From: Oscillospiraceae bacterium
GTDB taxonomy: Bacteria > Bacillota > Clostridia > Oscillospirales > Ruminococcaceae
DNA length: 36,978 nt
Reading direction: 5' to 3'
Assembly: GCA_017427265.1 (NCBI GenBank)
Contig: JAFRTG010000034.1
Span: forward strand, 1 to 36,978
Made by a program: the position numbers and the translations under genes
The notes under the pieces: generated by a model
The model's database searches: none
What the model was told of the DNA's origin: nothing
The model's input: the letters and a program-made list of their open reading frames with translations, nothing else
Part shown: piece by piece, positions 3,588 through 21,674 of the stretch
Numbering within the stretch: the first letter of the stretch is position 1
Layout: every line of letters begins with the position of its first letter

Positions 3588-3812
3588 TCAGTTGAACTTG
3601 TCGAGGAGCATCTGAAGGACTGCCTTGGTATCCTTGTCAGCCGCCTTGACATCCATGCCCCGGTCGTAGTTGAAAACCGTCTCGCCGCTGCGCTCGATCC
3701 AGATCTTCGAGGCTCTGCCCTCCTTGTAGCCGAACTTGCTGGGCTCCTCGAAGTGCTTCACGCTGTAGCGGTATGCGCTCCCGTTGTAGTTGATCGTGCC
3801 GTGTGTCCACAT
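3588..3812 (-). CDS. Hypothetical 74-residue protein, first gene of the cassette array
   Basis: I do not recognise this family. It begins MWTHGTINYNGSAYRYSVKH and ends AVLQMLLDKFN. The first half is rich in aromatic and beta-forming residues; a C-terminal helix follows. The frame stays open upstream to 3899, but that part ('HGNMVTTEGRKAHRK') is only a translation of the conserved promoter-leader that precedes many genes in this array, so the true start is the ATG at 3812, behind a weak GAGGGA site. It is driven by the promoter at 3871-3899 and is followed 65 bases later by the DUF6809-like gene and the packaging genes. Confidence 0.72.
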   Translation of the reverse strand: MWTHGTINYNGSAYRYSVKHFEEPSKFGYKEGRASKIWIERSGETVFNYDRGMDVKAADKDTKAVLQMLLDKFN

Positions 3813-3870
3813 AGTGTTTCCCTCGCTCTTTCGTAGTTTTCGGTGGGCTTTCCGCCCTTCCGTTGTGACC

Positions 3871-3899
3871 ATATTACCATGATCTGCGGACATTATCAA
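3871..3899 (-). promoter_or_regulatory. Array promoter 1 (TTGATA-17-TAATAT)
   Basis: Minus-strand -35 TTGATA at 3894-3899, 17-base spacer, -10 TAATAT at 3871-3876. Upstream is TTTAGCCGC; in this copy the proximal TGTACA box reads TGGCAG. A distal TGTACA box lies 30 bases further upstream. Downstream the leader carries the CGG-GGGC/GCCC-CCG hairpin. It drives the gene at 3588-3812 and possibly the terminase operon beyond. Confidence 0.85.
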
Positions 3900-3980
3900 G
3901 CGGCTAAACTGCCAGAATGTGCAGGCCGATTTTTCGGCATTTGTTGTACATATTATGCCTTGCCGTAAAACTCACCAGAA

Positions 3981-15480: not shown

Positions 15481-15499
15481 TTTGAAAGGAAGTCTTATT

Positions 15500-15682
15500 A
15501 TGGCTATTAAGAGTTTATCCATCCGAATCGAGCAGGAAATGCTTGACAAATTACACGTTGTTGCTGACTATGAAGGGCGTTCTGCCAACAGTCAGATTCT
15601 GATATTGATCCGTGACTGCATCGAGCAGTACGAGGAAAAGCACGGCAAGATCGAGCTTGGCGGGGACAAGAAATCAAAATAA
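15500..15682 (+). CDS. Arc-like ribbon-helix-helix regulator
   Basis: Protein of 60 residues beginning MAIKSLSIRIEQEMLDKLHV. 'KSLSIRIEQEMLDKL' gives the N-terminal strand (residues 3-10) that would insert into the major groove as a dimer; 'VVADYEGRSANSQILILIRD' and 'CIEQYEEKHGKIE' are the two helices. It is a DNA-binding repressor by family. AAAGGA lies 9 bases before the ATG at 15500; the longer frame from 15482 lacks a site. One of only two plus-strand genes in the window, divergent from the SLOG gene. Its likely target is the shared intergenic region. It converges on the displaced methylase tail at 15760. Confidence 0.86.
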   Translation: MAIKSLSIRIEQEMLDKLHVVADYEGRSANSQILILIRDCIEQYEEKHGKIELGGDKKSK

Positions 15683-15759: not shown

Positions 15760-15837
15760 TCACTTTTGTGTATCTCTCTGCGCTGCCCATGCGATGCCGG
15801 AAAGCACGAAATAAGTGCAAGGAAGCGCCACACCGTT
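15760..15837 (-). pseudogene. Displaced native C-terminus of the cytosine-5 methyltransferase
   Basis: Minus-strand frame with no start of its own, reading NGVALPCTYFVLSGIAWAA then six more residues and TGA. This is the classic C-terminal end of C5 DNA methylases (motif X, GN-x-V-ALPC). It lies immediately outside the left end of the RIT element, in the same orientation as the methylase gene at 19323-21674. Both frames meet at the same AAC-GG sequence. It is therefore what the methylase gene ended with before the element entered. Not translated now except by chance. Confidence 0.88.
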
Positions 15838-15858
15838 ATGGAAAGCTGTACATAACGG
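15833..15858. other. Left junction: inverted half-sites CCGTTATG-10-CATAACGG
   Basis: Perfect 8-base inverted arms at 15833-15840 and 15851-15858 around a 10-base spacer GAAAGCTGTA. This is the form expected for a tyrosine-recombinase core site. The outer arm belongs to the displaced methylase tail, the inner arm to the element. At the right junction AACGG (minus strand, 19387-19391) and AAGCT are spaced similarly but the outer arm is not a clear match. Confidence 0.72.
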
Positions 15859-15928
15859 GATTTATCTTGGAGTTGTATATTATGTGATGTGCGGCATAAA
15901 ATGGGCGGTAGATAGCGGAATTGTGTAA
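15854..15928 (+). other. Left-end spare methylase C-terminus, reading outward-in on the plus strand
   Basis: Open frame NGIYLGVVYYVMCGIKWAV followed by five residues and TAA, 24 codons plus stop. It parallels the 22-residue tail that the right end supplies to the methylase, and it aligns without gaps with the native tail. The first 15 codons lie in the inverted repeat; the rest differ from the right end in sequence but keep a Trp and remain open to a stop. It has no start; it could be expressed only if the element were inserted in the opposite orientation. Confidence 0.8.
15861..15897. repeat. RIT left inverted repeat (37 bases)
   Basis: Identical over 37 bases to the reverse complement of 19348-19384. 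It encodes Y-L-G-V-V-Y-Y-V-M-C-G of the substitute methylase tail on the plus strand. Confidence 0.93.
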
Positions 15929-15929
15929 A

Positions 15930-15956
15930 AGTACTCAACATAATATATTGAGTACT
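15930..15956. repeat. Inner inverted repeat AGTACTCAA-9-TTGAGTACT
   Basis: Perfect 9-base arms around CATAATATA, just inside the left end and just after the spare tail's stop codon. A plausible accessory recombinase-binding site. It overlaps nothing coding. Confidence 0.6.
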
Positions 15957-15960
15957 CTGA

Positions 15961-15996
15961 GAAGAAAAGAGAGGCAGATCAATTTAGACCTGCCTC
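15961..15996 (-). terminator. Terminator of the ritABC operon
   Basis: Immediately after the ritC stop: GAGGCAGGTC (15987-15996 on the minus strand) pairs with GATCTGCCTC (15971-15980) through a 6-base loop, one G-U pair, followed by TCTTTTCTTC. A rho-independent terminator that also keeps recombinase transcripts from running into the phage. Confidence 0.85.
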
Positions 15997-16003
15997 CTCT
16001 ATG

Positions 16004-17029
16004 CTACTTAGTTCCTTGAGAACCAAAATTTTTGAGCCAATCCATCATATTTTTACTTTTTTGCCATGAGGGAATTTCATGAACAGGCGAATTTTGAACT
16101 TGTTCCAAAGCTTTACGCTTCATTTCAAGACTGGAACGAGCATAAATTCCCGTTGTTTTAATATCTGAATGTCCCAAAAAATCACGCACGCTAATCAAAT
16201 CGTTATTTGATTCATAGATGTGCATTGCCTTTGTGTGGCGCAAAAGATGTGGATTTATCTTTGGTGGTATTGACGAATCAATCATTGAAGCCATTTTAGC
16301 GTACTTATTCAGAATATAAGTAATTCCTGCTCTGGTGAGTTTTTGACCATTACGATTTGTAAATAGCGGCAAATGGCTTTTTTCGGGGGTAAGCATGTGC
16401 ATTTCTGTAAGATAGTTTTTCAGATTTTTAGCCGTTGTTGGAAGAATAGGGACTGTACGTGTTTTACGCCCTTTTCCGTATATTCTCACATGAGCAGGAT
16501 GTTCTAATCGTACATCTTCAATTTTAAGATCACATATTTCTTGTACTCTTGCGGCGGTATCATATAGTAAACATAGGATAGTTGCATCTCTTCTTCCTTG
16601 ACGTGTAGTTGTATTCGGTTGACGCAATAGAACTGAAACAGCTTCCTTTGTAAGTGGCTGTATTGCTGTTCGTTCAGTTGTTTTAACCGGAATTGCTAGA
16701 ATTCTCTGAAAATTAAATAAAAGGCGTGGTTCTTGTGTCTGTAGATATTTGGTAAATGAATGAATCGCTGCTAGTCTTTGATTGCGTGTATTAACGCTAT
16801 TATGTCTGTTTGTCTCAAGCCAAAGCATAAAGCAATCAATCAGTTCGGGTGTAAAATCTTTCAAAGTGATTTTTTCTATGTTTTTCTTTTCTACATCTTG
16901 ACAATAGCTAAGCAATAATCTGAATGTATCACAGTACGATGCAATCGTGTTTGGACTTAGGTTTTTTAATTCCGGTAAATAATGAGATAGGAATTTAGTC
17001 AAATGTACGGAAAAATCAGTTGTCCTCAT
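16004..17029 (-). CDS. Tyrosine recombinase RitC-like, 341 residues
   Basis: Third recombinase of the trio. The N-terminal SAM-like core-binding domain runs from 'LTKFLSHYLPELKNLSPNTI' to about residue 105. Catalytic residues: Arg in 'DTAARVQEICDLK' near 160, Lys in the 'YGKGRKTRTVPI' hairpin near 185, HxxR in 'NPHLLRHTKAMHIY' near 265, His in 'DFLGHSDIKTTGIYARSS' near 290 and the nucleophilic Tyr in the same stretch. All five are present, so it is probably active. GGGAGG precedes its ATG, which lies 14 bases inside ritB. In this family the three proteins are thought to act together on the element's two ends. Confidence 0.9.
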   Translation of the reverse strand: MRTTDFSVHLTKFLSHYLPELKNLSPNTIASYCDTFRLLLSYCQDVEKKNIEKITLKDFTPELIDCFMLWLETNRHNSVNTRNQRLAAIHSFTKYLQTQEPRLLFNFQRILAIPVKTTERTAIQPLTKEAVSVLLRQPNTTTRQGRRDATILCLLYDTAARVQEICDLKIEDVRLEHPAHVRIYGKGRKTRTVPILPTTAKNLKNYLTEMHMLTPEKSHLPLFTNRNGQKLTRAGITYILNKYAKMASMIDSSIPPKINPHLLRHTKAMHIYESNNDLISVRDFLGHSDIKTTGIYARSSLEMKRKALEQVQNSPVHEIPSWQKSKNMMDWLKNFGSQGTK

Positions 17030-18005
17030 CAGGCACCTCCCATGTAGGAATTGTATCTCCCAGATATTTTGACTCGTTTTCCAAAAATTCCGGATAACAT
17101 TCTGCTGTTAAATGAAGATATATTTGCGTTTTGGACATATTGCAGTGACCTAAATAGGCTGATAGATATGGAAGTGAATTAACAATATCCCCCTTAGATT
17201 TTTTTAGCTTCTGCATAGCCCTAACGGCAAAAGTATGTCTTAGATCATGAACTCTGGGCCCATATCCGCGCCCTTTATGCTCAATTCCGCAGTACCAAAG
17301 TGCTTCTCGGAATCTATCATAAATAACATTTGTGTGATGAGCATTACGACGCGCATTAGGGAAAAAATAATCCTCATTAGAACTACCTTCATGAACCTCT
17401 CTAAAATACTGTTCGTATTCCTCCCATAAACCTTCAGAAAGCGGAACAAAACGTTGCTTGTCATGTTTGGCCGCACGTATTGTCAGTACGCCTCTCATAA
17501 TATCAACATCCTTGACCTTGAGTGTGGCAGCTTCACCAGCACGCAGTCCGCAGCAGATTAATGTTTTGAATAGCAACGGATAAACTATGTGAGCAATCGG
17601 ATATTGTCTGCTCGGCTGCATATTTTCAAAATAATTGATGATTTGAGCTAATTCCTTATCTGTGAATATATAGGGTGTGAAATCAGCATCGTCTCTGGAT
17701 GAAATAGAATAATCAGGATAATATGCGTCATAACCCATTCTTTGAAGATACTCAGCAAACCGTTTAGTAAAATTCAATCGCCATTTCTGGTTTTTTCGTT
17801 TTTCATTCGGCCTTTTTGCTAACCATTTCTCAACAACTTCCTGAGATAAAACTGGAGTTGTTACGCCTTGACTTAAAAGGAAGCGATCCATTGTCCAAAA
17901 GGTTTTGGCTTCTTTGTCGTATTTGCATCCGAGTACCCGTTTCTCTGCAATAAACGAATTAATCTGATTAGCTAAGCCACTCTGATAATGATATATACGA
18001 CTCAT
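17016..18005 (-). CDS. Tyrosine recombinase RitB-like, 329 residues
   Basis: Middle recombinase. It starts MSRIYHYQSGLANQINSFIA with a core-binding domain up to about residue 110, then the catalytic domain: 'CCGLRAGEAATLKVKDVDIM' (Arg, near 155), 'AAKHDKQRFVPL' (Lys, near 180), 'VHDLRHTFAVRAM' (HxxR, near 253) and 'YLGHCNMSKTQIYLHLT' (His and Tyr, near 287-297). Complete catalytic set. Its ATG overlaps the ritA stop by 4 bases (ATGA), so translation is coupled. It is A+T-rich like its neighbours. Confidence 0.9.
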   Translation of the reverse strand: MSRIYHYQSGLANQINSFIAEKRVLGCKYDKEAKTFWTMDRFLLSQGVTTPVLSQEVVEKWLAKRPNEKRKNQKWRLNFTKRFAEYLQRMGYDAYYPDYSISSRDDADFTPYIFTDKELAQIINYFENMQPSRQYPIAHIVYPLLFKTLICCGLRAGEAATLKVKDVDIMRGVLTIRAAKHDKQRFVPLSEGLWEEYEQYFREVHEGSSNEDYFFPNARRNAHHTNVIYDRFREALWYCGIEHKGRGYGPRVHDLRHTFAVRAMQKLKKSKGDIVNSLPYLSAYLGHCNMSKTQIYLHLTAECYPEFLENESKYLGDTIPTWEVPDEDN

Positions 18006-19216
18006 AAAAGCTCACCATCTTCAAACGATAACGCACATTCGCGTAAGGTTTCAATATCTAATCGAATATAATGTGCGAGAGAGTCTCTATCTGAATGTCC
18101 TAAGAAAGAAAAAATTACATCAGGCGAAACACCTGCATCGAGCAATTTGGTTGCAGCCGTAGCTCTAAGTGAGTGCAGGTTGTGGTGGGCTTTCGTAGGT
18201 ATTTTTACACCTGATCGTGAAACATATCTCTTAAATGCCGTACCAAATGATTTCAGTTTGTCATAGGGAGGATTCATGCTTACAAATAGGTAATCATGAT
18301 CCGTTTCTGGTCTTACCTGCAAATAATCAATAACTGCAGAACCAACTCTCTCAGAAAGAGGTAGGACATTGGGCTTATGTGTTTTGCTTTGCTGAAATGA
18401 AATTGAACATATTTCCCAATCAAAATCTGAAACCTTTAATTCACGTATATCCTTACTTCTAACACCAAGTTCAGCAGCAATTAAAATAAATGCGTAATCT
18501 CTCTTACCCTTGACTGATGAACGGTCTACTGCCTCAAGAACAGCTTCTATTTCATCGGATTCCCATATTTTTACCATACTCTGAGAGCTACCCAGTCGGT
18601 ACTGTGGCACAAATGATGTCAGGTCATTATCCGTGTAATTCAACAAGTACAAATATGATAAAAACTTTCTTAATCTGCTGAGTTCACAACGAATAGTACT
18701 CCTTGCATGGCCATTTAGTGATAGCACATATGAGGAGATGTGAGTTTTATCGATTTGCGACAATTTTGTTACTCCAATACTTTGAAAGTATCTCAAAACA
18801 TTTGAAATGCCTTTTCGCATGGTTGAGCAAGAGCTTTCTGAATGCCCAGTTTTTTGAAGGTATTTATCTTGAGCATCAAGAAATTCCATAGCTTCTTGTG
18901 GTAACTCAGAAAGCGGATTAAGCTCACCCATCCTCCATCCTCCACGATAATACATAAGATCCAACATTTTGATGCACTGAATTTTGCGCTTAATAGTTGA
19001 ATCCTTATACTTCGGCTCTTGATGAGTAATTTCTGCAATATACAGATCTTTTAACGAGTGAGAGTAATGAGTATATCCATTCAGATTGCAGAAATCTAGA
19101 AATCGCTTCCATGCAAGGATAACATACTTGCACCTTTTAGGTGAATACCCTTGTTTATGCAATGTTTCCGTCGCATCCATGATCAACTGTTCTACTGTCA
19201 TATTCGACAATGCCAT
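18002..19216 (-). CDS. Tyrosine recombinase RitA-like, about 404 residues
   Basis: First and longest recombinase. 'TVEQLIMDATETLHKQGYSP' starts an extended N-terminal region; the core-binding domain continues to about residue 195 ('STIRCELSRLRKFLSYLYLL'). Catalytic residues: Arg in 'AAELGVRSKDIRELKVSDFD' near 255, Lys in 'QQSKTHKPNVLPL' near 280, HxxR in 'NLHSLRATAATKLL' near 345, His and Tyr in 'FLGHSDRDSLAHYIRLD' near 370-383. The start is uncertain: ATG at 19216 and GTG at 19219 both sit close behind AAAGGA; I prefer the ATG. A promoter and a long palindrome lie directly upstream. Confidence 0.89.
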   Translation of the reverse strand: MALSNMTVEQLIMDATETLHKQGYSPKRCKYVILAWKRFLDFCNLNGYTHYSHSLKDLYIAEITHQEPKYKDSTIKRKIQCIKMLDLMYYRGGWRMGELNPLSELPQEAMEFLDAQDKYLQKTGHSESSCSTMRKGISNVLRYFQSIGVTKLSQIDKTHISSYVLSLNGHARSTIRCELSRLRKFLSYLYLLNYTDNDLTSFVPQYRLGSSQSMVKIWESDEIEAVLEAVDRSSVKGKRDYAFILIAAELGVRSKDIRELKVSDFDWEICSISFQQSKTHKPNVLPLSERVGSAVIDYLQVRPETDHDYLFVSMNPPYDKLKSFGTAFKRYVSRSGVKIPTKAHHNLHSLRATAATKLLDAGVSPDVIFSFLGHSDRDSLAHYIRLDIETLRECALSFEDGELL

Positions 19217-19221
19217 CACGT

Positions 19222-19281
19222 CCTTTCAAGAGAATATTACCACATAATTATGGAATATATGCGGTAATCTCTCAAGAAAGG
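19222..19281 (-). promoter_or_regulatory. ritABC promoter inside a 60-base near-palindrome
   Basis: -35 TTGAGA at 19270-19275, 17-base spacer, -10 CATAAT at 19247-19252 on the minus strand. The promoter is embedded in an imperfect palindrome whose arms run CCTTTC-AAGAGA...ATTACC (19222 on) and GGTAAT-CTCTC-AAGAAAGG (to 19281). Placement suggests the recombinases, or a host factor, bind here and silence the operon. Confidence 0.68.
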
Positions 19282-19322
19282 AACGATGATTTCAAGAATA
19301 TTATGTGAAGTAAATTTGCTGT

Positions 19323-21674
19323 TTACTCTTTATTTATCGACCATACAATGCCGCACATCACATAATATACAACTCCAAGATAAACGCCGTTGCCCCAGAG
19401 CTTGTACTCGGCACTGTCCGTATACGGATCAGCCAGCCATTTGCGGATCTGCTTTTCCGTTTTCGGCTTGCCGTTTGGATTGGTGACCTGCCGCCATGTC
19501 TCCCAGACCTCCGTCCAGAATGCAATATCCGCATCGGAAGGATCGGGAATTGCGAGGTCGGAGCACCACCAGTCCGGGAATCCCTGCAAACGGGCACACT
19601 CCACCGGCGTCAGGCGGCGGACGATATACACCGGCTCATCGTTCGGAAGGTCGTTCACAAGCGGAGGATCCTTCCAGTCAGATGCGACCAGCGTGTTTGC
19701 CTGTTCATGAGCCGCTACCGTATGGTGTGAATTTTTACTGGTGCAGTAGTGGTCTGCCGGTGCTGCGACTGTCGCAGGACCTCTTGCCACTGCCGTGACG
19801 GATACATCCTCTGAAACAGCGAAGTGGTTGTCACGGGAGATTGTGAAGGAGGGATCAGGTGCGACTACGCAATGGCGATCTGCGGTATTCAACGTGAAAC
19901 ACACATCTTCATTGATGCCGTCACCCTGCGGTCCATTTTTGTCGGCTCTGCCGATCATTGAGCCTTGCAACGAGAATGTTTCGGGCATCACGACAGCCTG
20001 CTGATTATCTCCTGCATTCGCTCGGAGCGTACCGCTTTTGCCGTCACTGTATACATGACCGCCGACACGGGATGCCGCACCCGGTTCAAGAGCCACCACC
20101 GCAACTCCGCCGTGATTGCTGTCTGGATTCGCCTCGCTCGTATCAAGGCATCGGGAGATGTCTGTCGGATAACAATGTCCACGAGCATTTTTCGTGCCCT
20201 CGGACGTGAAACGTACATCGAATGTCTCCGGTGCAGGGGCTACCACGCAGATTCCGCCCTGATTCGATGTCACGGAATTTCCGCCGCTCTGATCGAGCGT
20301 TCTGCTTGTTGTCGCTTCGTAAAAGCCGCTGTGCGGGTTGTCCGACATCATCGCATTGGAATGCTTGCTGCATACACCGAAAGCCCTGACCTCCGGCTGA
20401 AAGAGCGTCTGGTCATTATGGGTTCCGAGTGTCGCTGACATATCCTTCTGCCAGAGAGCGCCCTTGCCGCCGCCCTCGCAGCCTGACCTGATCTTCAGCG
20501 TAACAGGCTCCGCCACAAGCGGTACATTATTGCCGCCTGTTCCGGCTCTGCTGCAAAGTGTCTGACAGGTGTCATCTTCACGGATACGGATTCTTCCGTC
20601 AGTCGGATGATTCTCCACGGAGAGCGCCGCCGGAACGACACCGGCTCTCAGTGTGGGAGAAACCTCCTCCTCGTAACCGATGCTCCGAGCCTTTGCGCTG
20701 TGTTCCGTTGAGAAACCCGCCGCCTGTAGGACACCGTTTCTGCCGGTTGACATTCCGCAATTTACACCGAGCGTTGCTGCGGTATCATCGGTCACTGCGG
20801 CATTGTAGCCGTCAATGCCGACTGCGTGAAGCACCGCAGGATGATTGCCATGATCCTGGGCGACCAGCGCAAGCGCTTTGTCCTCGGTGATGCCGACACC
20901 ACTGTTGCCCTGCGGATTCAGGCAGAGGGTTCCACCTCCAGCGTCAGTCCGCCCGCCTGTCTCTCCAGTGCCTTCTTCAGCACCTCTGGCAGTTCCTTGC
21001 CACGAACGGAAGCCCTGCGGAGTATACCCAGACATGCCTTCGGACTTAAATAATATTTCTCCGGCACTTCTGCCAGCAAAATCTGCGACAAGGTAGATTC
21101 TTGCTCTTCGCTGGGGGACACCCCAGTATTGAGCATCGAAAACTCGGTAAGCCACGCTCCATCTGTCTCCCAGATATACGTCTGCTTTTGCCCATCTGTG
21201 ATTTTCAGGCGCAGGCACCTCGATCCCTTTTTCTTTAACTCCGATAACTGCTTCGAGGACAGCTTTGAAATCGTCTCCTCCGTTGGAGGAGAAAGCGCCG
21301 GGGACGTTCTCCCAGACGCAGTATCGCGGGTATTGTCCATTTGTTGCATCCCTCATTTCTTTGATGATGCGAATCGCCTGAAAGAACAGGTTCGACCGAT
21401 CACCGTCATGGATTCCGGCACGCTTGCCCGCAATGGACAGGTCTTGGCACGGGCTGCCGAATGTGATGATATCTACCGGCGGAAGCTCTGCACCGTTCAG
21501 CGTAGATACATCGCCGTAGTGCTTGATCCCCGGCAGACGTCTGTGCGTCACCAGAATCGGAAAAGGTTCAATTTCACTGCTCCACTTCGGCTCGATCCCT
21601 GCGAGGATGCCGCCAAGCGGAAAACCGCCGGAGCCGTCAAACAGGCTGCCGAGCGTCAGATGTTTTGTTTTCAT
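19323..21674 (-). CDS. Cytosine-5 DNA methyltransferase, C-terminus supplied by the RIT element
   Basis: Methylates cytosine C5 in DNA using SAM. 783 residues, far longer than the usual 350-450. Motif I 'LGSLFDGSGGFPLG' (residues 8-21), motif IV 'TFGSPCQDLSIAGKRAG' near 71-87 with the catalytic Cys, motif VI 'WENVPGAF' near 121, motif VIII 'QRRARIYLVADF' near 188-199, motif IX 'ARLQGFPDWW' near 698 and motif X 'LWGNGV' near 759-764. Between VIII and IX lie about 480 residues of degenerate repeats with an S-x-TL core. Residues 762-783 are encoded by the RIT right end; the native tail is stranded at 15760-15837. CAGGAGGAATAA precedes the ATG. Last gene of the methylase cluster, 14 bases after the previous one. 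Confidence 0.93.
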   Translation of the reverse strand: MKTKHLTLGSLFDGSGGFPLGGILAGIEPKWSSEIEPFPILVTHRRLPGIKHYGDVSTLNGAELPPVDIITFGSPCQDLSIAGKRAGIHDGDRSNLFFQAIRIIKEMRDATNGQYPRYCVWENVPGAFSSNGGDDFKAVLEAVIGVKEKGIEVPAPENHRWAKADVYLGDRWSVAYRVFDAQYWGVPQRRARIYLVADFAGRSAGEILFKSEGMSGYTPQGFRSWQGTARGAEEGTGETGGRTDAGGGTLCLNPQGNSGVGITEDKALALVAQDHGNHPAVLHAVGIDGYNAAVTDDTAATLGVNCGMSTGRNGVLQAAGFSTEHSAKARSIGYEEEVSPTLRAGVVPAALSVENHPTDGRIRIREDDTCQTLCSRAGTGGNNVPLVAEPVTLKIRSGCEGGGKGALWQKDMSATLGTHNDQTLFQPEVRAFGVCSKHSNAMMSDNPHSGFYEATTSRTLDQSGGNSVTSNQGGICVVAPAPETFDVRFTSEGTKNARGHCYPTDISRCLDTSEANPDSNHGGVAVVALEPGAASRVGGHVYSDGKSGTLRANAGDNQQAVVMPETFSLQGSMIGRADKNGPQGDGINEDVCFTLNTADRHCVVAPDPSFTISRDNHFAVSEDVSVTAVARGPATVAAPADHYCTSKNSHHTVAAHEQANTLVASDWKDPPLVNDLPNDEPVYIVRRLTPVECARLQGFPDWWCSDLAIPDPSDADIAFWTEVWETWRQVTNPNGKPKTEKQIRKWLADPYTDSAEYKLWGNGVYLGVVYYVMCGIVWSINKE
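19348..19384. repeat. RIT right inverted repeat (37 bases)
   Basis: Reverse complement of 15861-15897, identical over 37 bases. On the minus strand it encodes the stretch from Tyr765 of the methylase to the start of the next few codons (Y-L-G-V-V-Y-Y-V-M-C-G-I). Confidence 0.93.

Follow-up and report, generated by a model that had tools for sequence, protein, structure and literature searches.

A 36,978-nucleotide stretch of Oscillospiraceae DNA (contig JAFRTG010000034.1 of assembly GCA_017427265.1; the whole stretch is called the window here) raises the question of how a mobile element can settle within a protein-coding gene and leave that gene a complete reading frame. The interrupted gene encodes a C5-cytosine methylase, and the inserted DNA is a recombinase-in-trio (RIT) element, three overlapping tyrosine recombinase genes between inverted repeats. 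The answer that we consider very probable is that a mobile RIT lineage has specialised on motif X of such methylases, enters it in either orientation and carries at each of its ends the codons of a replacement C terminus.

The window is phage DNA, as its frames include PHROGs matches for terminase, portal, primase, helicase and ribonucleotide reductase. The methylase frame (19323-21674, minus strand, 783 codons) matches PF00145 and TIGR00675, the C5-cytosine methylase families, and the recombinase trio lies directly behind its end. The native head of the phage enzyme occupies 19384..21674 (minus strand), up to a shared AACGGCGT, and can be aligned as far as 19384 with the uninterrupted methylase of a second locus, L209. 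The present C terminus, NGVYLGVVYYVMCGIVWSINKE plus a stop codon (19323..19391, minus strand), is supplied by the ritA end of the element. The ritC end carries a second tail, NGIYLGVVYYVMCGIKWAVDSGIV plus a stop codon (15854..15928, plus strand), which is unused in the present orientation; both tails were identified by reading the frames and by peptide score. Outside the element lies the displaced native tail, NGVALPCTYFVLSGIAWAAQRDTQK plus a stop codon (15760..15837, minus strand), which is the same as the end of the uninterrupted L209 methylase. A preliminary description of the window had put a three-recombinase element within methylase motif X and had quoted a chimeric tail, an inverted left-end tail and a displaced native tail; the trio, the arms, the split gene and all three tails were found as described.

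The arrangement could not be put down to chance because L209, an element-free relative of the window phage, lacks the insert, is collinear with the window on both sides and has a methylase whose end, NGVALPCTYFVLSGIAWAAQRDTQK, equals the displaced tail letter for letter. On the head side the alignment stops at 19384, with 83.6% identity over the last 1.2 kb and 91.9% over the preceding 2.7 kb; on the tail side it runs from 15837 with 92.2% identity over 5.7 kb. The two alignments overlap by 8 bases, AACGGCGT, which is how the empty site reads. Insertion and empty site are thereby both visible in the comparison. L209 belongs to a set of 86 methylase loci (L138-L223) examined for their tails, drawn from viral contigs (the best 80 of 539 encoding a relative), and the tail was readable in 80 of them, the window included. 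None of the 79 other tails read among the relatives listed ends in the YLGVVYYVMCG of the chimera, and that of L209 is native. Two of these tails (L194 and L195) read ALPCVYYVMMGI and have a YYVM-GI stretch in common with the chimeric tail, so that part lies within natural tail variation. A recombinase profile search of the 86 listed loci found the genes of the trio only in the window's own locus. Two element-free methylases, at L138:2552 and L139:5142, have an odd tail, NGICLANAFFVLAGIAWCAGL, which could be natural variation or an excision scar.

The inserted element is 3,546 bp long (15838..19383) and lies between two copies of AACGG[C/T]GT, its limits being set by the flanks collinear with L209 and the 8-bp alignment overlap. 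All three of its genes are on the minus strand, match PF00589 and have the catalytic R / HxxR / H / Y residues in a motif scan: a ritA-like recombinase (405 aa, GTG start, 18002..19219), a ritB-like recombinase (329 aa, 17016..18005) and a ritC-like recombinase (341 aa, 16004..17029), with overlaps of 4 and 14 bp, stop codons counted. Comparison of the ends gave terminal inverted repeat arms of 61 nt that are 87% complementary (left 15854..15914, plus strand; right 19331..19391, minus strand), within which the 37-base repeat of the preliminary description is exact when counted by eye. Terminal inverted repeats, a border palindrome and a length of about 3.5 kb are those of RIT elements, as are three adjacent, overlapping recombinase genes in the size range of about 315-410 aa. 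Mobility is seen by comparison only, in the empty site of L209 and in an element contig of a second genome, described below, that is joined to two heads and two displaced tails. The fourth gene and cargo of GInt islands were not seen (the non-trio frames of at least 60 aa between the arms are 60-81 aa long and fall within trio genes or span an arm; no ginD profile search was made). A Tn554-type element would have TnpA, TnpB and a non-recombinase TnpC, and the third gene here is a tyrosine recombinase. RitA has been described as having two core-binding domains and RitC an extra C-terminal helix (PMC8138268).

Does the element choose this site, or did it merely land there? Searches of viral and genome collections with a single protein or two sequences gave nothing or one locus (L036); three-row alignments worked better. 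One recombinase clade comprises nine different elements: that of the window and those of L034, L036, L038, L039, L040, L041, L042 and L045. RitC scores are 648-690 within the clade versus at most 466 for every other trio found. All nine elements lie at the same place in C5-methylase genes, which at the level of sequence is target specificity of the whole clade. The head is visible for seven of the nine, that of L039 being on contigs that overlap it; L034 and L041 are flanked by methylase tails on both sides. No clade member was found in an unrelated gene without tail-coding ends; the RITs seen in other genes are far outside the clade (RitC at most 466 versus at least 648). When whole genomes were sampled from the order, another family, the genus and the phylum, distant RITs were all that turned up beyond the elements already known, and DNA searches near two carriers gave no further copies. 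The suggestion that the element travels with methylase-bearing phages holds for the window, L036 and L045, which are on phage or viral contigs, and fails for L034, which is within a conjugative element (MobL relaxase and type IV secretion system coupling protein by Pfam).

Convincing methylase tails of 22-29 codons were read at both ends of seven of the nine elements. Those of the window, given above, have only two differences over the first 17 residues and then end unlike each other (VWSINKE vs KWAVDSGIV). In L036 the ritA end encodes NGVSLPIVFFVLSGIVWAANKDFC and the ritC end the same to W, then AYNKDLS; in L038 the ritA end encodes NGVCLNIVVMIMFGIKWAANKES and the ritC end again the same to W, then AAEQDFS. 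L040 has NGISLPIGFFVLSGIKWAAESDFY at its ritA end and (NG)ISLPIGFFVLSGIVWAYNKDTPKKMSK at its ritC end, inside which the contig ends, the bracketed residues being off the contig. The ritA and ritC ends encode NSVCVPVVVFVLSGIKWAYDKDSC and NSVCVPVVIFVLSGIKWAYDKDLSQKMS in L041 and NGCSLPIVFFVLSGIKWAADMDFC and NGCSLPIVFFVLSGIVWAYNKDLTQKMSQ in L042, and L045 has NGVCVNIVIMVMAAIKFAAEGGFEEK at both ends. The tails of the remaining two elements are weaker: L034 has NSVYWDKAIMLMMGTKMA at its ritA end and NSVYLIMVVMRRTDV... at its ritC end, and L039 has NSVYLIKVIMLRIGAKMV and (NS)VYLIIVVM, respectively, its contig likewise ending inside the ritC end with the bracketed residues off the contig.

All ten visible methylase heads are in frame with an element end. 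Seven are fused to the ritA end (the window, L036, L038, L040, L042 and contigs C70 and C71 of G568, a Flintibacter muris genome) and three to the ritC end (L045 and contigs C36 and C42 of G568). Hence both ends are used, and the earlier proposal that insertion in either orientation leaves the methylase frame complete agrees with in-frame fusions at both ends. In G568 the element-end pattern is present on eight contigs besides the element contig L039, four of which overlap L039 by exactly 77 bp. The ritA end of L039 meets a methylase head on C70 and a displaced tail on C48, and its ritC end a head on C42 and a displaced tail on C44. Variant ends were also found, with a head at a ritC-type end (C36), a head at a ritA-type end (C71) and displaced tails on C75 and C47; the body of the variant is not on the contigs seen. 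The head contigs C36, C42, C70 and C71 match PF00145, giving four methylase genes fused to such ends in one genome. We had taken the paired contigs of G568 as proof of opposite orientations and dropped this argument, as a head-element-head and a tail-element-tail arrangement, produced by recombination between copies, fits them equally.

The outer flanks of L034 and L041 are a related case. Both are displaced methylase tails (L034:189-287 and 3743-3841; L041:1-84 and 3750-3911), no head is visible and a full palindrome is present at both junctions. These loci were first read as nested insertions. The two full palindromes are explained at least as well if element copies in two methylase genes recombined with each other, and the two histories are indistinguishable here.

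Inverted ends with unlike last residues and the presence of both kinds of head fusion within one genome (G568) would also be expected if the element were a switch, inversion between its ends alternating two methylase C termini in a form of phase variation. The opposite orientations were observed at different loci, however, and the two tails of the window differ at two of the first 17 residues, so there is little to switch. We consider a switch improbable and return to the reading in which either end serves as a replacement C terminus.

If the tails are replacement C termini, their peptides should be under selection, which can be measured here since every element holds the same short protein tail in duplicate. 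For each element, one end was compared with the other over the first 17 codons, and the seven elements with methylase-like tails were pooled. The pooled steps, which are not all independent given the history common to the L036/L040/L041/L042 branch, were 25 synonymous and 12 non-synonymous, with an expected synonymous fraction of 0.226 (P=7e-9). In neither of the other two frames was there a synonymous excess (P=0.68 and 1.0). Restricting the pool to four elements, each from a separate branch, gave 17 synonymous to 5 non-synonymous steps (P=4e-8), and all nine elements, including L034 (4.3 to 16.7) and L039 (4.7 to 8.3), which are outside the seven-element pool, gave 34 to 37 (P=4e-7). The ends of L045 have eight differences over 26 codons, all of them synonymous third-position changes. 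Codons 4-17 of ten element ends (five elements) were also compared with the native tail displaced at each locus. First codon positions agreed at 79/140 sites, second positions at 86/140 and third positions at 39/140; the third is at chance, and the likeness is therefore one of protein and not of DNA. The window has this pattern least clearly (9, 7, 7 and 8, 7, 7 of 14). The synonymous excess and the likeness confined to positions 1 and 2 together show selection on the encoded peptide and not on a DNA site alone.

These results bear directly on a simpler explanation, that the ends resemble a methylase tail only as recombinase-binding sites that match the target DNA, with the peptide likeness a by-product. 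Tyrosine recombinases do require core sites that are related, element end and target have their first 8 bp, AACGG[C/T]GT, in common, and RITs in general have inverted repeats and palindromes. Beyond the third codon, however, the likeness is in codon positions 1 and 2 only, it extends to codon 17, well beyond a half-site, and the ends of one element diverge synonymously in the methylase frame and in no other. The synonymous test and the codon-position identities strongly disfavour the binding-site explanation, which we regard as very unlikely.

Another explanation, to which we assign a small likelihood, is that imprecise excision recently gave the element a copy of a host methylase 3' end, which has since persisted through drift, or through gene conversion between the repeats, with no selection for function. 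It would account for the tails of L036, L040 and L042 (SLPIVFFVLSGI or SLPIGFFVLSGI), which are close to the native ALPCVFFVLSGI, and conversion between ends fits the nearly equal arms of L045 (91%). A drifting copy would not, however, keep 25 synonymous against 12 non-synonymous differences, and since third positions are at chance relative to the displaced native tails, the capture was not recent. Capture may still be the ancient origin of the tails.

Further evidence for methylase tails at the element ends came from peptide scores against 37 distinct native tails (77 loci, among the relatives listed), with 20,000 residue shuffles per tail. The window tails scored 26.0 and 17.7 in the methylase frame and at most -26.7 in the other two, and none of the 20,000 shuffles reached the score. 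Over the seven elements the in-frame tails scored 3.5 to 42.3, six of the seven exceeding all 20,000 shuffles, and the out-of-frame readings of all nine elements scored at most -19.0. The claim that both ends have evolved to mimic a methylase motif is thus supported for seven elements, by peptide score and pooled synonymous excess, and less so for L034 and L039, which are only weakly methylase-like.

Several observations weigh against specialised, functional tails at both ends. The L034 and L039 tails score below 0 in frame against the native tails (shuffle P 0.01-0.03) and still below 0 against tails of their own methylase subfamily (shuffle P 0.01-0.17), and at the ritC end of L039 the tail is only 10 codons long. 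The L045 tails score just 3.5, with a shuffle P of about 0.001, and the window's own tail pair has 2 synonymous to 3 non-synonymous steps, no significant excess. The heads of L038, L040 and L042 were recognised by likeness from only their last 23, 63 and 47 codons, all that is on the contigs. Restoration of motif X by the element tail has positive peptide scores in its favour; the chimeric methylase modelled by AlphaFold from an 18-row alignment had a mean predicted local distance difference test score of 37.6, too low for any judgement of its tail, and the model was not used. Finally, the restored methylase of L045 is broken in its head by a second, distant RIT.

That L045 gene was thus struck twice, by two RIT lineages. 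The second RIT (L045:8640-12025) lies at ENV|PGAF and has the core CCCTTATG-AACTTCAATA-CATAAGGG. A distant RIT trio in G568 (C62:1-9000, locus L241) follows an N-terminal methylase fragment and may be another distant RIT that entered a methylase head.

How might insertion proceed without a fixed orientation? The two junctions of the window are unequal: the head side carries only AACGGCGT, and the native-tail side carries a 26-bp palindromic core, CCGTTATG-GAAAGCTGTA-CATAACGG (15833..15858), of two 8-bp half-sites around 10 bp. With this 8+10+8 design as the criterion (0 or 1 mismatch, TTATG required), 28 of 59 distant RIT trios and four of the eight other clade members had such a palindrome alongside, versus 0/59 for flanks read backwards and 0.1 on average for shuffled flanks. 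RITs have been reported to carry an 'overlapping palindromic sequence' (PMC3414803), with which this design agrees. From this geometry we infer a reaction between a joint of the element ends and the target, with orientation free because the two ends are alike. In the scheme that we favour, the target of this RIT lineage is motif X (GN[G/S]V), encoded close to where C5-cytosine methylase genes end, and the two inverted ends of the element would act alike, permitting integration in either orientation. Recombination, presumably carried out by the three recombinases, would join one end to the target AACGG[C/T]GT or its equivalent; the joined end would contribute what follows N-G/S, 8 to 24 codons in the observed fusions and a stop codon, and the other end would be left with the 26-bp palindrome beside the displaced native tail. 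Both ends would be retained as methylase C-terminus coding sequence because each insertion uses one of them. The chimeric methylase would then be active, and replacement of the tail would spare the host phage or mobile element.

Completion of an interrupted gene by element DNA is itself familiar: phages and integrative and conjugative elements restore the end of their target gene from one attachment site, as e14 does in icd. In such known integrations completion is from one end and the orientation is fixed. The present element differs from the e14 type in that both of its inverted ends code for the tail. It shares with the RIT elements of Van Houdt et al. 2012 (PMC3414803) the three overlapping tyrosine recombinase genes, the length of about 3.5 kb, an inverted repeat (28-29 bp there) with a palindrome flanking ritA and ritC, and the occurrence of several copies per genome. 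The RIT section of that paper places RITs in a transposase gene and in radC and reports neither gene-restoring ends nor methylase targeting. GInt islands (ginABCD, PMC5385486) likewise have several tyrosine recombinases, integrate at gene 3' ends (ssb) and change the target C terminus; they differ in having a fourth gene, cargo DNA and direct imperfect repeats, and the available part of that account describes no paired tail-coding inverted ends. The strand-biased circularising elements (PMC10214605) form a circle joint with a short spacer between end motifs that is left at one junction on insertion, comparable to the 10-bp spacer here, although their gene set is intA, tfp, intB and srap, the spacer is 6 bp and the hosts are Gammaproteobacteria. 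IStrons (PMC4227781) also insert harmlessly to the host gene, but by RNA self-splicing and with no substitute peptide. In the literature searched on RITs, methyltransferases and gene restoration, taken in part and with the main RIT survey (Ricker 2013) not covered, we found no description of two-ended C-terminal restoration.

On the reading given here, a transposon-like element without a fixed orientation has solved gene restoration at both ends. This would give RIT elements, the targeting of which has been obscure, a defined target. It would also provide a natural experiment on the range of motif X variants that a C5 methylase tolerates. A prediction is that phages and mobile elements carrying the target methylases benefit from keeping these enzymes functional.

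Is two-ended restoration peculiar to this clade? Among 30 distant elements with an inverted repeat found, a set not screened for redundancy, eight lie at the ends of phage portal genes (L049, L051, L052, L053, L054, L086, L091 and L093). PF04860 was present in all four portal genes tested (L049, L051, L053 and L054), and the other four were assigned by the same sequence motif. Both ends of these elements complete the frame with YVE plus a stop codon or a close variant, the portal head entering the ritA end in six elements and the ritC end in two. Other RITs lie in genes with no visible restoration, among them genes for IstB (L115) and an amidoligase (L088). As the distant RITs described here have YVE-stop ends or no visible restoration, long methylase tails mark a single lineage, and two-ended restoration in a minimal form may be more general among RITs. 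Only tentatively, with the balance leaning somewhat against it, do we extend this to a general RIT strategy of two-ended C-terminal replacement, in which each lineage maintains, at its two inverted ends, codons completing the protein it interrupts; if true, an element would be evolving, in its attachment ends, a portion of the protein that it targets.

Two minor observations may be added. At L115:59-424, and in L116, RITs interrupt an IstB-like ATPase gene at its Walker A motif (PF01695 matches the L115 gene; L116 was assigned by likeness), and the gene is apparently unrestored. In the window, an Arc-like small DNA-binding protein is encoded at 15482-15682 (plus strand), just beyond the displaced methylase tail and on the strand opposite to it.

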